DNA of 55,384 bases, taken from the NCBI GenBank assembly GCA_019636815.1, contig JAHBWT010000016.1, positions 1 to 55,384 on the forward strand, read 5' to 3'. The first letter of the stretch is position 1; each line of letters starts with the position of its first letter. The notes under the pieces are model-generated. The model searched no databases and was not told the DNA's origin. It saw nothing but the letters and a program-made list of their open reading frames with translations. This DNA comes from Nitrospira sp. (GTDB taxonomy: Bacteria > Nitrospirota > Nitrospiria > Nitrospirales > Nitrospiraceae). Positions 16,412-22,147 of this stretch are shown here, in pieces. A program made the position numbers and the translations under genes.

Positions 16412-17146
16412 ATGGCACACGGATCGGATTTGTCATTATTGAAGGAACGGCTGGCGGGTGCCGAATCGGTCACCGTTCTGACTGGAGCCGGCATCTCAGC
16501 GGATAGTGGTGTTCCGACCTTCCGTGGCAAAGACGGACTCTGGCGCACGCACCGCGCCGAAGATCTGGCCACACCGGAGGCTTTTGCGCGCGATCCACGC
16601 CTTGTTTGGGAATGGTACAACTGGCGGCGCGAGCTGATTGCCGCCAAGCGACCCAATCCCGCTCATGATGCAGTCGTCGTACTGGAGCGACGATGCCGGA
16701 GCTTCTGGCTTATCACTCAAAATGTAGATGGGCTCCATCGGGATGCCGGTTCGCGTAAGCTTTCAGAGATTCACGGCAACATTTGGATGGTGCGCTGTAC
16801 CGAGTGCAGTCGGGTCGTGGAGAACCGAGATGTCCCTATTCATATTCTCCCCGTCTGCCACCACTGTCGCGGCCTCCTGCGCCCTCATATCGTATGGTTT
16901 GGGGAATCGCTAGCGGATGAAGACCTTCGGCACAGCTATGCGGCGCTTCGTTCCTGCAGCCTCTGCGTGATCATTGGCACATCCGGGCTCGTGTATCCGG
17001 CTGCAGGATTCGCCTCTATGGCGAAAGAAGCCGGCGCATTCGTAGCTGAAATCAATCTGGATCCCACGCCACAGTCAGCGCTGGTCGACGTGTCACTACA
17101 AGGCCGTGCCAAAGACATCGTTCCGTTACTGCTCGATCCGATCTAG
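16412..17146 (+). CDS. cobB: NAD-dependent protein deacylase, Sir2 family (SIRT5-like)
   Basis: Removes acyl groups from protein lysines using NAD+. Signatures: VTVLTGAGISADSGVPTFRG (NAD-binding GAGxS), ITQNVDGLHRDAG, catalytic His in EIHGNI, a zinc ribbon (VRCTECSR and PVCHHCRGLL) and IIGTSGLVYPAAGF. The substrate-site motif WEWYNWRRE supplies the Tyr-x-x-Arg pair that in CobB and SIRT5 binds negatively charged acyl groups, so desuccinylase or demalonylase activity is likely (family knowledge, not shown). At 244 residues it is a normal short bacterial sirtuin. Its last 21 bases overlap the 3' end of the convergent HAD gene. Confidence 0.92.
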   Translation: MAHGSDLSLLKERLAGAESVTVLTGAGISADSGVPTFRGKDGLWRTHRAEDLATPEAFARDPRLVWEWYNWRRELIAAKRPNPAHDAVVVLERRCRSFWLITQNVDGLHRDAGSRKLSEIHGNIWMVRCTECSRVVENRDVPIHILPVCHHCRGLLRPHIVWFGESLADEDLRHSYAALRSCSLCVIIGTSGLVYPAAGFASMAKEAGAFVAEINLDPTPQSALVDVSLQGRAKDIVPLLLDPI

Positions 17147-17851
17147 CAGGGGGATCAGCTCCCCCAAGTTCTTAAGAGTTGGAACGTCGGGTTGTTGCTG
17201 TCTTCCGTCACGGTCCACGAGAGCGGCATGCAGCCCGGCTTTCCGTGCACCCTCCACATCCTCCCGTATACTATCTCCAACATGCAGGGCCTCTCCCGGC
17301 TCGACTGCATGCTTCTCCAATGCGATGCGGAAAATCCTGGGAGCCGGTTTCGCGGCTTGCGCCAAACTTGAGATCGTCATGGTGTCAAAACTGTCCGCAA
17401 TTCCCAGCCCTCGCATCACCGTGAATAAACGCGAGTCAAAATTCGAGATGATGCCAAGCTCCAGATCCCGCGCTTTGAGCTGCGCCAAGATGGCCGTTGT
17501 TTCAGGGAACAACCGCCACGCTCGGTGATCCTCAAACGCGTGAAAGACCTGATCGAAGAACTCATCGAATCGCTGGAACATACCCACCCGGTAGAAGACA
17601 TGATGAACGATATCGAACCACCAGAGTCGCTCGCTCTGTTTGAGCTGAGCAGGGTCGGTGACGGCGAAAATCGGGGGAGGAGCGTCATGGAACGCACGGC
17701 GAAAGGCCTGAGCGATCTCGGTTACCGAGTCTGGTCTCCGGCGAAACCCAAATTGAACGGCATGTTGAAGATACATCTCCGCTACCGAGCCATGCACATG
17801 AAACAGGGTATCGGCAGCGTCAAAAAATACGACTCGTATTGAACGTGTCAT
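17126..17851 (-). CDS. HAD-superfamily hydrolase (HDHD3/DREG-2-like)
   Basis: A 241-residue haloacid-dehalogenase-like phosphatase with a helical cap. Motif I is VVFFDAADTLF, motif II LGIISNFDSR, motif III the Lys in AAKPAPRIF, and motif IV LHVGDSIREDVEGARKAG. In motif I the second Asp of the usual DxDxT is Ala, as also occurs in the HDHD3/DREG-2 subgroup, so classical phosphatase activity should not be assumed. The substrate is unknown. It converges on cobB with a 21-base overlap, and its 5' end faces the receiver gene across about 140 bases, a likely divergent promoter region. Confidence 0.8.
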   Translation of the reverse strand: MTRSIRVVFFDAADTLFHVHGSVAEMYLQHAVQFGFRRRPDSVTEIAQAFRRAFHDAPPPIFAVTDPAQLKQSERLWWFDIVHHVFYRVGMFQRFDEFFDQVFHAFEDHRAWRLFPETTAILAQLKARDLELGIISNFDSRLFTVMRGLGIADSFDTMTISSLAQAAKPAPRIFRIALEKHAVEPGEALHVGDSIREDVEGARKAGLHAALVDRDGRQQQPDVPTLKNLGELIPLLDRIEQ

Positions 17852-17990
17852 ACCCCGCCAGTCATGGCCTCAGGGCGCGGCCTGCCTTTGCACCAAAATA
17901 CGTCATGAATACAATCATCTATCGATGGTTTTCTTGACAAAGAATACCTCCCTTGCTAGCTTCGAGGAAATAAAAAAATACGGAGATTTC

Positions 17991-19130
17991 ATGCCATCAC
18001 CGATCTTTGTTGTGGATAGCAGTCCCGCGGTCAGACGGATGGTAGAACAGATTTCCACTCCTGAAGGGTTCGAGGTCATTGGGTTTCAGGATGGACCAGC
18101 CGCTCTCGATGCCGCTCGCCAAAATACACCCTCGCTCATCATTGCAGACTACCATCTCGACAATATGACGTTTTCAGGGTTCTGCAAAGAGATCAATAAA
18201 TTAGACGGTCTAACGGAAACCTTCCTCATTTCACTGATCAATCCGGCCGATCATCCTGACGAAAATCATCTCCGCACTCTCGGGGTGAAGGCATTTTTGA
18301 AAAAACCGTTTCAGCCGGAAGATTTGTTGGACGTTCTGAAGTCTCTTGAGAAGACCCCTGCCGGATCTTCAAACGGGAAGGGTCTTACGCGGCGTGCCTG
18401 GCCCCCGATATCGACCTCGACTGATACTGACTCTGAGGAGTCGGGCGCTCCTGTCGCGAGCAGCAAGGTCCATGAGGAGATACAGGAGCACCACAGCCCC
18501 GCAGTCATCATACCACCGGCTTCCCCCGCAGGACCTGAAGATGCGATGAAGGGTCTTTTTGACCAGCTCTTGCAATCTATGACTCAACGGAGCGAGCAGC
18601 GTCTCGCCGATCTGCTTCCGCAAATAATTGACGCGAAACTGGGCGCTCACGTGCAGCCGATCGTCAAAAAGGAATTGCAGGAACAGCTCGGGAGCATCCT
18701 CTCTCAGGAGTACCTCACCTTCATCATCCAACCCTTGATCGCTCACGCGTTGCCCTCGCTCATTAAAAATGAGATCGCAAATTGCCAACCGCTCATCCAG
18801 CAGGCCGTGGCTGACCTGGCCAATCCCTTGATCGGAGAGAGTGTGGATCGACTCGTACGGGAACAGAGCGAATCCGGTGTCCAGCAATGCGTACCGGCGG
18901 CTGTGCGAGAACAGATGGGGACGATCGATCAGATAGTCAAAGACGAGGTTCAGCAGGCGGTTTCGAAGCAAACGCCGGCACTAACCGAAAACCTGGTACG
19001 AGCAATTGCTAGCGAACGTGTCGAACAGGCTATCCTGCGCATTGTACCCGACGTCGCCGAACGGCATATCAAAGCGGAACTCAAGCGCCTGCTCGAGACC
19101 GAAGAAACATCACACTCCTCTGCGGCCTAA
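17991..19130 (+). CDS. Response-regulator receiver protein with long helical C-terminal region
   Basis: A receiver domain (residues about 3-120) followed by some 260 residues of unrecognised, helix-rich sequence. The receiver has IFVVDSSPAVRRMVEQI, phospho-acceptor Asp in LIIADYHLDNMTFSG and the conserved Lys in KAFLKKPFQPEDLL; the acidic pocket has only one Asp instead of the usual two. After a proline/serine-rich linker, the tail carries repeated amphipathic stretches (LADLLPQIIDAKLGAHVQPI, QPLIAHALPSLIKNEIANCQ, QQCVPAAVREQMGTIDQIVK, PALTENLVRAIASERVEQAI). No DNA-binding or enzymatic output domain is seen. The ATG at 17991 has a CGGAG ribosome binding site; the frame is open back to 17925 but that part reads as leader. 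Confidence 0.75.
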   Translation: MPSPIFVVDSSPAVRRMVEQISTPEGFEVIGFQDGPAALDAARQNTPSLIIADYHLDNMTFSGFCKEINKLDGLTETFLISLINPADHPDENHLRTLGVKAFLKKPFQPEDLLDVLKSLEKTPAGSSNGKGLTRRAWPPISTSTDTDSEESGAPVASSKVHEEIQEHHSPAVIIPPASPAGPEDAMKGLFDQLLQSMTQRSEQRLADLLPQIIDAKLGAHVQPIVKKELQEQLGSILSQEYLTFIIQPLIAHALPSLIKNEIANCQPLIQQAVADLANPLIGESVDRLVREQSESGVQQCVPAAVREQMGTIDQIVKDEVQQAVSKQTPALTENLVRAIASERVEQAILRIVPDVAERHIKAELKRLLETEETSHSSAA

Positions 19131-19240
19131 CTTTTCTTTCCTCGTTTCCCTCTTCGAGCTTTGGCGAGCGCTTTCATCCGTTTCACATTCTTCCGATGTT
19201 TCTTCCTCGTTTTTCGATCTTTTTCTCGACCTCGTGCCAT
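19127..19240 (-). CDS. Very basic 37-residue protein with strong ribosome binding site
   Basis: This short gene is read from ATG 19240-19238 to TAG 19129-19127. It starts MARGREKDRKTRKKHRKNVK and ends with KALAKARRGKRGKKS; more than half the residues are Lys or Arg and there is no Cys, Trp or acidic cluster. A near-perfect Shine-Dalgarno, AGGGAGGACC, stands immediately before the ATG. Its stop codon overlaps the stop of the convergent receiver gene. The composition resembles small ribosome-associated or nucleic-acid-binding proteins (for example THX or mS38/COX24-like peptides), but I cannot assign it to a family. The divergent neighbour is valS, which fits a translation-related context. Confidence 0.7.
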   Translation of the reverse strand: MARGREKDRKTRKKHRKNVKRMKALAKARRGKRGKKS

Positions 19241-19350
19241 GGTCCTCCCTACAGTGATTAAATCAATCAACCCCGTGCGGGCGTCTGTATAGCACATGCC
19301 TCGTCAGGTCACAAGTTGAGACTCATACCATTTTCTGATCGACCCAGACA

Positions 19351-19359
19351 TGTTAAGAT
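19351..19359 (+). promoter_or_regulatory. Possible extended -10 promoter element for valS
   Basis: TGTTAAGAT fits an extended -10 box (TG-N-TAAGAT, four of six matches to TATAAT) and lies 28 bases before the valS ATG. No convincing -35 hexamer stands at the right spacing, so this is a weak, pattern-only call. Confidence 0.25.
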
Positions 19360-19387
19360 ACCGCCCGTTTGACTTGGACAGCGCTTA

Positions 19388-22147
19388 ATGACTCCGATTC
19401 AACTGGACAAAACCTACGACCCAAAAACCGTCGAAGCTCGATGGTCACAAGAATGGATCGCTCAGGGGTACTTCCATACCTCACCGGAACGATCTGGCCG
19501 ACCATACAGCATCGTGATTCCTCCGCCAAATGTGACGGGGTCCCTCCATGTCGGGCACGCGCTCAACCATTCATTACAAGACATTCTGATCCGGTGGCGG
19601 CGCATGCAGGGACGAAACACCTTATGGCTGCCGGGAACTGATCACGCCGGAATCGCTACGCAAAACGTCGTTGAGAAACAAGTGATGGCCGAAGGCGCTT
19701 CGCGCGAGTCACTCGGCCGGGAGCGGTTTATCGAACGAGTCTGGCAGTGGAAGGCTACCTCGGGTAACACGATCGTCAATCAACAGAAACAATTGGGCGA
19801 ATCCTGCGACTGGGACCGCCTCCGTTTCACGATGGACGAGGGGCTGTCTCAGGCAGTTCTCGAGGTATTCGTTCGACTGTATGAAGACGGATTGATCTAC
19901 CGGGGCGAACGACTCATCAATTGGTGCCCCCGCTGTCTGACGGCGCTGTCGGATATTGAAGTGGAACACGAGGATGTCAAAGGCAAGCTCTATTCAATCC
20001 AATATCCACTGGAAGGCGATCCTTCCACGAAACTCACCGTCGCCACTACGAGACCGGAGACGATGCTAGGCGACACAGCCGTCGCCGTCCATCCTGAAGA
20101 TGCCCGTTTCAAGCATCTTATCGGCAAGCGTGTACGACTCCCGTTGACGGATCGCACGATACCGATCGTGGGCGATGGCATTCTCGTCGATCGGGAGTTC
20201 GGTACCGGCGCCGTAAAAATTACCCCGGCGCATGATTTCAGCGACTACGATGCGGGTGAACGGCACCAGCTTATGAGAATTCGCATCCTAGACATCCACG
20301 CGAATTTACTCAACGAATCCGAATTGCGCCTAGCTACAAAGGCAACACCCGACACTGTAGCTGCATTAGCAGGCCTGTCTACGCAAAAAGCCCGTATAAA
20401 AGTTGAGCAACTACTTGCGGATCGAGACGCTCTGGAGAAAGTCGAACCCCATAAGATGTCGATAGGGAAATGCTATCGCTGCAAAACGGTTGTTGAGCCC
20501 TATCTCTCCATACAATGGTTTGTAAAGATTGGGCCGCTTGCCGAACCGGCAATCAAAGCTGTCGAAGATGGTCGCATCCGGATCATTCCGGAAGGCTGGG
20601 TCAACAACTATTTCGGCTGGATGCGGGACATCAAAGATTGGTGCATTTCACGACAAATCTGGTGGGGACACCAAATCCCGGTATGGTATTGCGAGCAATG
20701 TAGCGGAGGTTTTCTCAGAAGTACACACGATCATAGGCCGCTTATCGGTCTCGATGCGAAACCTATCGTTGCAAAGTCAAAACCGGAACGATGCTCTCGC
20801 TGTGGAAGTGCCGATCTGGTTCAAGATCCCGACGTGCTCGATACCTGGTTCTCCTCCGCGCTGTGGCCTTTTTCCACGTTGGGGTGGCCGGAACAGACAC
20901 CGGAACTCAAGACGTACTACCCAACTTCCGTGCTTGTAACCGGGCTCGACATTTTGTTCTTTTGGGTGGCCCGGATGATCATGATGGGCTTGAAGTTCAT
21001 GGGAGACGTCCCCTTCCGCGATGTCTACATTCACGCCCTGGTCCGTGACGCGGAAGGAAAGAAAATGAGCAAGTCGAAAGGGAACGTCATAGACCCGCTC
21101 CATGTCATGAATGAGTTTGGAACCGATGCGCTTCGCTTCACGCTCGCCTCGATGGCTTCACCTGGTCGGGATGTCAAGTTGGCGGAAGAACGGATCGAAG
21201 GGTATCGAAACTTTGCCAACAAGATTTGGAACGCGGCCAGATTCGCTCATATGTATCTTGACGGCCCGCGCTCGCCTCTCCCGGTCTCTCAGCGGACGAT
21301 TCCAGATCGTTGGATCCTCAGTCGGCTGAACCACGCCATCAAGACTGTCACGGCGGAATTAGAAGGGTATCGCTTCGATCGAGCTTCCAACGCCCTGTAT
21401 CATTTCATTTGGCATGAGTTCTGCGATTGGTATCTGGAACTGATCAAGCCGGTCCTCCAGGTTGCCGACCACCCCGATGGACCCGCAACAAGAGCCACGC
21501 TGATTGAAACCATGGAAACCACCATGCGCCTGTTGCATCCGTTCATGCCATTCATCACGGAAGAGCTCTGGCAGACGTTTCCACATCAAGGCCGCAGTAT
21601 CGTGACCCAAGCGTATCCGATGGAAGAACCATCATGGGACTCATCCGAAGCCGAGCAACTGTTTGCGCTCATTGAGCAAACGGTCAACTTGGCTCGGACC
21701 GGTCGTGTACTCCTGAATTATCCGCCGGGCCAGCCCATCACATGCCACCTGTCTCATGAAGACACAACAAAACAGAACCTCCTCAACCAGGTTCTGCCCC
21801 ATGCGGCCCATCTTGGTCGAGGTACGTTTAAGAATATGGCGCGCTCAAGCTGGCCGTCGCACCAACTGCTCAGGCTGGTCGCAGAGGGGCTCTCCGTCGG
21901 AATCAACGTGTCCGGTGAAGTGGACCTCCACAAAGCACTCGATCGTTTGGACAAGCAACTCTCCGAGGTCGAGCGAGAATCACAGCGCCTAAGCGGTAAG
22001 CTGAACAATCCCGACTTCGTCTCCAAAGCTCCGCCTGAGGTCATTGCCGATCATCAGAGCCGCCTCCGCTCGCTCGCGCAAGATTCCAGCATGTTGATCA
22101 GTAGTGAACGGCAGCTGCGATCCATGCTGGAGCCCGATCAACCGTGA
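19388..22147 (+). CDS. valS: Valyl-tRNA synthetase
   Basis: Charges tRNA-Val with valine. The 919-residue class I synthetase shows the HIGH-type motif IPPPNVTGSLHVGHALNHS near residue 45, the editing (CP1) domain with TTRPETMLGDTAVAVHP, the NWCPRCLTALSDIEVEHE segment, and the KMSKS loop GKKMSKSKGNVIDPL near residue 557. The C-terminal anticodon-binding region ends in a coiled coil (LDKQLSEVERESQRLSGKLN) as is usual for bacterial ValRS. A second Cys pair region (CYRCKTV, CEQCSGG, CSRCGSAD) is a zinc-knuckle insertion. The 3' end overlaps the nadC start, so the two are translationally coupled. Confidence 0.97.
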   Translation: MTPIQLDKTYDPKTVEARWSQEWIAQGYFHTSPERSGRPYSIVIPPPNVTGSLHVGHALNHSLQDILIRWRRMQGRNTLWLPGTDHAGIATQNVVEKQVMAEGASRESLGRERFIERVWQWKATSGNTIVNQQKQLGESCDWDRLRFTMDEGLSQAVLEVFVRLYEDGLIYRGERLINWCPRCLTALSDIEVEHEDVKGKLYSIQYPLEGDPSTKLTVATTRPETMLGDTAVAVHPEDARFKHLIGKRVRLPLTDRTIPIVGDGILVDREFGTGAVKITPAHDFSDYDAGERHQLMRIRILDIHANLLNESELRLATKATPDTVAALAGLSTQKARIKVEQLLADRDALEKVEPHKMSIGKCYRCKTVVEPYLSIQWFVKIGPLAEPAIKAVEDGRIRIIPEGWVNNYFGWMRDIKDWCISRQIWWGHQIPVWYCEQCSGGFLRSTHDHRPLIGLDAKPIVAKSKPERCSRCGSADLVQDPDVLDTWFSSALWPFSTLGWPEQTPELKTYYPTSVLVTGLDILFFWVARMIMMGLKFMGDVPFRDVYIHALVRDAEGKKMSKSKGNVIDPLHVMNEFGTDALRFTLASMASPGRDVKLAEERIEGYRNFANKIWNAARFAHMYLDGPRSPLPVSQRTIPDRWILSRLNHAIKTVTAELEGYRFDRASNALYHFIWHEFCDWYLELIKPVLQVADHPDGPATRATLIETMETTMRLLHPFMPFITEELWQTFPHQGRSIVTQAYPMEEPSWDSSEAEQLFALIEQTVNLARTGRVLLNYPPGQPITCHLSHEDTTKQNLLNQVLPHAAHLGRGTFKNMARSSWPSHQLLRLVAEGLSVGINVSGEVDLHKALDRLDKQLSEVERESQRLSGKLNNPDFVSKAPPEVIADHQSRLRSLAQDSSMLISSERQLRSMLEPDQP

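Follow-up and report, generated by a model that had tools for sequence, protein, structure and literature searches.

Very small ribosomal proteins have been described in other bacterial lineages. In the Borrelia ribosome, bS22 and bL38 were found in a cryo-EM map although neither had been annotated, and bS22, with 61% lysine and arginine, sits in an rRNA pocket (PMC10618245). The bS22 and bL37 proteins of Cutibacterium acnes are small as well, and are bound within rRNA cavities (PMC10085706). According to these two reports, such proteins are small, helical, lineage-restricted and sometimes unannotated, with 55-65% basic residues in the bS22 group (PMC10618245, PMC10085706).

Here we analyzed a stretch of 55,384 nt from a Nitrospira genome (hereafter, the window), in which an earlier sequence-only reading had pointed to an unannotated, Lys/Arg-rich protein of 37 residues beside valS, with a Shine-Dalgarno sequence just before its ATG and a stop codon overlapping that of its neighbor. 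The basic protein, the Shine-Dalgarno sequence and the overlapping stop codons were borne out, as listed below with the surrounding features:

19127-19240, minus strand: gene for a small basic protein of 37 residues, ATG to TAG, supported by its translation, its conserved family and pN/pS
19243-19249, minus strand: Shine-Dalgarno GGGAGGA, with two bases between its end and the ATG
19286-19291, minus strand: predicted -10 element TATACA, extended by the preceding TGTGC (19296-19292)
19309-19314, minus strand: predicted -35 element TTGTGA, with a 17-nt spacer to the -10 element
19388-22147, plus strand: valS, the constant divergent neighbor by synteny, separate from the small gene
17925-19130, plus strand: response-regulator receiver protein, the convergent neighbor, absent from several lineages in which the small gene persists
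17126-17851, minus strand: HAD-type hydrolase, which follows the small gene on its strand in lineages lacking the response regulator
C46, 54710-54799 (L070, 1501-1596): true bS22 (COX24_C) of the same genome, 31 residues, MSSVLKKRRKKMRKHKYKKLRQRQKFLRRKS

The small gene runs on the minus strand from its ATG at 19240 to a TAG stop ending at 19127, and encodes MARGREKDRKTRKKHRKNVKRMKALAKARRGKRGKKS. Its 11 lysines and 9 arginines make up 20 of the 37 residues, the highest count among the 45,620 open 37-residue windows in the six frames of the window (the runner-up has 17). The gene is convergent with that of the response regulator, whose TAA stop lies at 19128-19130; the two overlap by 4 bases, of which 2 are common to both stop codons. 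On the other side, about 147 bases separate its ATG from that of valS, from which it is directed away. An in-frame ATG further upstream, at 19297, would give a product of 56 residues but is an unlikely start, since the Shine-Dalgarno sequence and the conserved reading both point to 19240.

Selection on the reading frame was measured over 131 distinct 30-codon cores, yielding a pN of 0.147 and a pS of 0.750 (ratio 0.20). These cores were gathered by a pattern fixing G4, R5, K7, K14, H15 and, partly, other positions, and exclude f9 and the divergent member in G006 (both described below), so that in the rate, promoter and composition tests made on this set the invariance of the fixed residues is partly by construction. 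In the shifted frames the ratio was 1.2 and 2.0. Of the antisense frames, two gave 1.4 and 2.2, and the one with third positions mirroring those of the small gene gave 0.36. Entropy at codon positions 1, 2 and 3 was 0.52, 0.35 and 1.32 bits, respectively. A looser set anchored by synteny, in which f9 and G006 are included, returned a similar ratio of 0.22 (94 loci, 89 distinct), and close pairs returned 0.13 (189 pairs), as compared with 0.11 for the region of valS around what we take to be its first catalytic motif. The comparison of synonymous and non-synonymous rates, one of the two refutation tests proposed together with the original reading, thus came out in favor of the gene. The other, conservation of the frame in close relatives, did so as well, with a relative present in 129/147 genomes of the family. 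Together these results strongly support a protein-coding gene, and we consider it virtually certain that the 37-residue frame is a real one.

Nearly all of the positive family genomes (128/129) have a single match; the relative at FP929003.1:1637506 reads MPRGREKDRKTRKKHRKNVARVKGLVKARRAAAKKVKRG. Relatives also occur outside the family of the window's genome (f1). In f3, a second family of its order, all 22 sampled genomes have one, as counted from the match rows, and so do 7/7 genomes of f9, which belongs to another order of the same class. No relative was found in f2 and f4, two families of the same order with one sampled genome each, and no credible one elsewhere in the class or phylum, where weak matches fell inside other open frames. 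The match in G280 (f7; E = 0.0013) is a chance one, lying out of frame within a gene that by eye reads as dihydrouridine-synthase-like, and those in G286 and G222, together with second matches in f9, lie inside long open frames and were left out of the family. Searches of plasmids and phages gave no match at E of 1, and the two PHROGs matches were both above E of 0.5. The in-depth searches covered Nitrospirota, plasmids and phages; in a scan of all phyla with one N-terminal pattern, 78 of the 80 kept loci carry Nitrospira-type names. The other two (L189 and L192) are labelled "uncultured Nitrosospira" yet carry the Nitrospira locus, and are probably misnamed Nitrospira bins. A divergent member, MARAHMKKRKLKKKHRKNIRRIKALVRKRR..., occurs beside valS in a small genome of 1.7 Mb (G006; L050, 2524-2655), having lost the GREKD motif and kept the KKHRKN core.

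For 11 of the 18 family genomes without a match, valS was looked for. No valS was found in two, and in seven valS was incomplete or the contig ended at or near its start, so that the assembly does not cover the place of the small gene. G076 retains just the final 20 codons of the small gene, preceded by unrelated repeat-like DNA, and G054 has a rearrangement in the stretch beside valS; the gene appears to be lost or broken in these two genomes, an assembly artefact being possible. Both carry AGCATCCTGC beside the break (L272, about 1500-1720, in G076; L274, upstream of valS, in G054); this stretch may be a repeat element specific to the genus or an effect of assembly. The absence from sister families and the apparent loss in two genomes argue against the protein being strictly essential.

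The small gene is inherited in place, and its location beside valS is fixed. In every examined locus holding both genes the two are divergent. Across 94 loci the small gene begins 143-595 bp ahead of the position where the valS alignment starts; in one further locus (L097) the distance is 1.9 kb and the orientation unchanged. The arrangement is also kept in all seven f9 loci, two of whose genomes are counted among the 94. The other neighbor is less constant: the response regulator, which consists of a REC domain and a long C-terminal part that has no Pfam match, is missing in f3 and in some f1 genera, where the small gene remains and the next gene is mostly the HAD hydrolase on the same strand. 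The response regulator has been gained or lost at this position, flanked by the small gene and the HAD hydrolase.

Conservation across relatives also identifies a conserved extended -10 promoter belonging to the small gene itself. Most f1 upstream regions carry TTGNNN, a spacer of about 17 nt and TRTGYTATACA, mostly 35-90 nt before the ATG. TRTGNTATAN occurs in 115/134 distinct upstream regions, as compared with 0.3% of shuffles, and a Shine-Dalgarno-like core (GGAG, GAGG or AGGA) precedes the gene in 132/134 distinct relatives, as compared with 12.5% of shuffles. The f3 upstream sequences are more divergent. A generic promoter scan of this stretch of the window reported none, the TTGTGA-TATACA pair falling below its thresholds.

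The protein is conserved most strongly at residues 1-25; past residue 30 the tail varies in length and sequence and keeps its basic character. Across 95 distinct relatives lysine and arginine account for 42-57% of residues and, by eye, the alignments hold no hydrophobic segment, by which we rejected a small membrane-type toxin of a type I toxin-antitoxin system. AlphaFold, run on the single sequence, predicts one helix at residues 2-33 with a mean pLDDT of 88.6, although a lone basic helix is an easy prediction and reveals little on partners. Variability along the sequence does not follow the periodicity of a helix (78% of shuffles give a value as large). This would be expected of a helix surrounded by its target, and not of one that is amphipathic or part of a coiled coil. 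A single basic helix of this kind, as modelled, would fit well with a ribosomal component.

Database comparisons placed the protein in no described family. No tested member, including 25 A1 members and three divergent ones, had a credible match in Pfam or NCBIfam, where the best was a stray match to DUF2951 (E = 0.025, in 2/25 members); PDB likewise gave no credible match, the best being a stray one to 60S L29 (E = 4.9). Rfam had no match at 18800-19700, and neither of two sequence fragments of the protein was found in open-licence papers. That the product is a ribosomal or nucleoid component, as first suggested, is thus something we infer without credible Pfam, NCBIfam or PDB homology.

One likeness is to bS22/mS38 (COX24_C, PF08213). 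Bacterial bS22 proteins have about 31-33 residues, about 55-65% of them lysine or arginine, and are helical, their site being the 16S pocket of h2/h27/h44/h45; the KKH-RK motif looks alike, and the bS22 of this genome, which gene callers may also miss, is similarly encoded by a small gene that stands alone behind a Shine-Dalgarno sequence of its own. However, the small protein has no PF08213 match, and in a profile comparison 30/200 column shuffles reached the real score, which is chance level. The genome's own bS22, by contrast, served as a positive control, matching PF08213 at 45.4 bits (7.5e-12) as well as the bS22/mS38 chains in PDB, so the small protein occurs in addition to a separate, true bS22. 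Actinomycetota bL37 (query sequence confirmed in PDB) is also very small, basic, helical and of limited phylogenetic range, but has 24 residues; hhalign aligned 4 columns and 78/200 shuffles scored as high, placing the similarity no higher than the shuffled control. The uL30 of this genome (open frame of 72 residues, domain match of 50) leaves little room for a bL37-like extension, and the bL37 site, near the tip of 5S rRNA and the PTC, could therefore be free. On the idea that the small protein might replace an extension at the uL30 N-terminus, a rough survey of genomes that have or lack the small gene found uL30 in 27/29; its open frames span 64-191 residues and are mostly shorter than 110. 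The small basic ribosomal peptide bTHX (PF17070) was rejected too, no tested member having a Thx match, and the best THX match of the genome lies in a different place and below the cut-off (13.1 bits). The bL38 of Borrelia and Flavobacterium is described as containing beta strands, whereas the small protein is predicted to be all-helical; Borrelia bL38, too, was unannotated before its ribosome structure (PMC10618245). Among the genomes searched, with and without the small gene, bS21 is present in 29/29 and bS22 in 28/29, and neither therefore explains the distribution of the small gene.

By analogy with these systems, we think that the gene probably encodes a lineage-specific ribosomal, or permanently ribosome-associated, rRNA-binding protein, of the bS22/bL37/eL41 type in form yet of a different family. 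Its transcription would start from an extended -10, sigma-70-type promoter of its own, and its translation would be helped by the strong Shine-Dalgarno sequence ahead of it. The product would consist of one basic alpha-helix, about 32 residues long, and a short basic tail, and the helix would be buried in an rRNA pocket, neutralizing phosphate charge, as with bS22, bL37 and eL41; RNA binding, ribosomal location and a stabilizing role are presumed steps in this scheme. Several points weigh against a ribosomal protein. No known ribosomal protein is related to it in sequence, and its gene lies outside ribosomal operons. It was not found in the sampled f2 and f4 genomes or in most of the class and is apparently lost or truncated in G054 and G076, which implies that translation can proceed in its absence. 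Moreover, the same features would be expected of any polycation that binds RNA or DNA.

This last point leads to the possibility of a nucleoid-associated protein, or a general nucleic-acid-condensing polycation resembling a histone H1 tail, that binds DNA without a fixed site. The 20/37 lysines and arginines would suit such a role, as would C-terminal tails that differ in length and sequence and yet stay basic. We nevertheless find it unlikely, because the first 25 residues are kept position by position, including the uncharged or acidic G4, D8, H15, N18 and L25 (some of which are within the collection pattern, and which are also conserved in the looser-pattern A1 and A2), and a non-specific binder would not need such positional conservation.

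Comparably doubtful is a conditional regulator bound to the ribosome, such as a hibernation or assembly factor, in place of a structural subunit. Its own promoter apart from the ribosomal operons and a patchy distribution with apparent losses are what one might expect of such a factor, whereas the core is near-invariant, under constraint resembling that of a housekeeping enzyme region, and a solitary small gene with its own Shine-Dalgarno sequence is equally found for bS22 in this genome. A role in cis for valS, as a leader peptide or divergent regulator, is prompted by the constant, divergent position adjoining valS. It is very improbable given that the gene has its own promoter, directing transcription away from valS, that conservation acts on the protein and not on the DNA, that Rfam has no match in the surrounding interval, and that the spacing of the two genes differs among loci (143-595 bp, with 1.9 kb in one genome). 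Finally, the shortness of the frame and its 4-base convergent overlap might suggest that it arose by chance or as a by-product antisense to the response-regulator gene, a reading refuted by the conservation of the frame, by its pN/pS relative to the other frames and by retention of the gene where the response regulator is missing.

We see roughly even chances that the gene represents an undescribed family of helical ribosomal proteins, additional to bS22, that was acquired or retained by three families and is dispensable in their relatives. Nitrospira are major nitrite oxidizers and include the comammox organisms; no Nitrospira ribosome structure was found among open-licence papers. If the ribosomal reading is true, the protein would join bS22, bL37 and bL38 among the lineage-specific ribosomal proteins that can escape annotation, and its sequence would provide a ready model for unassigned density in any map of a Nitrospira ribosome.
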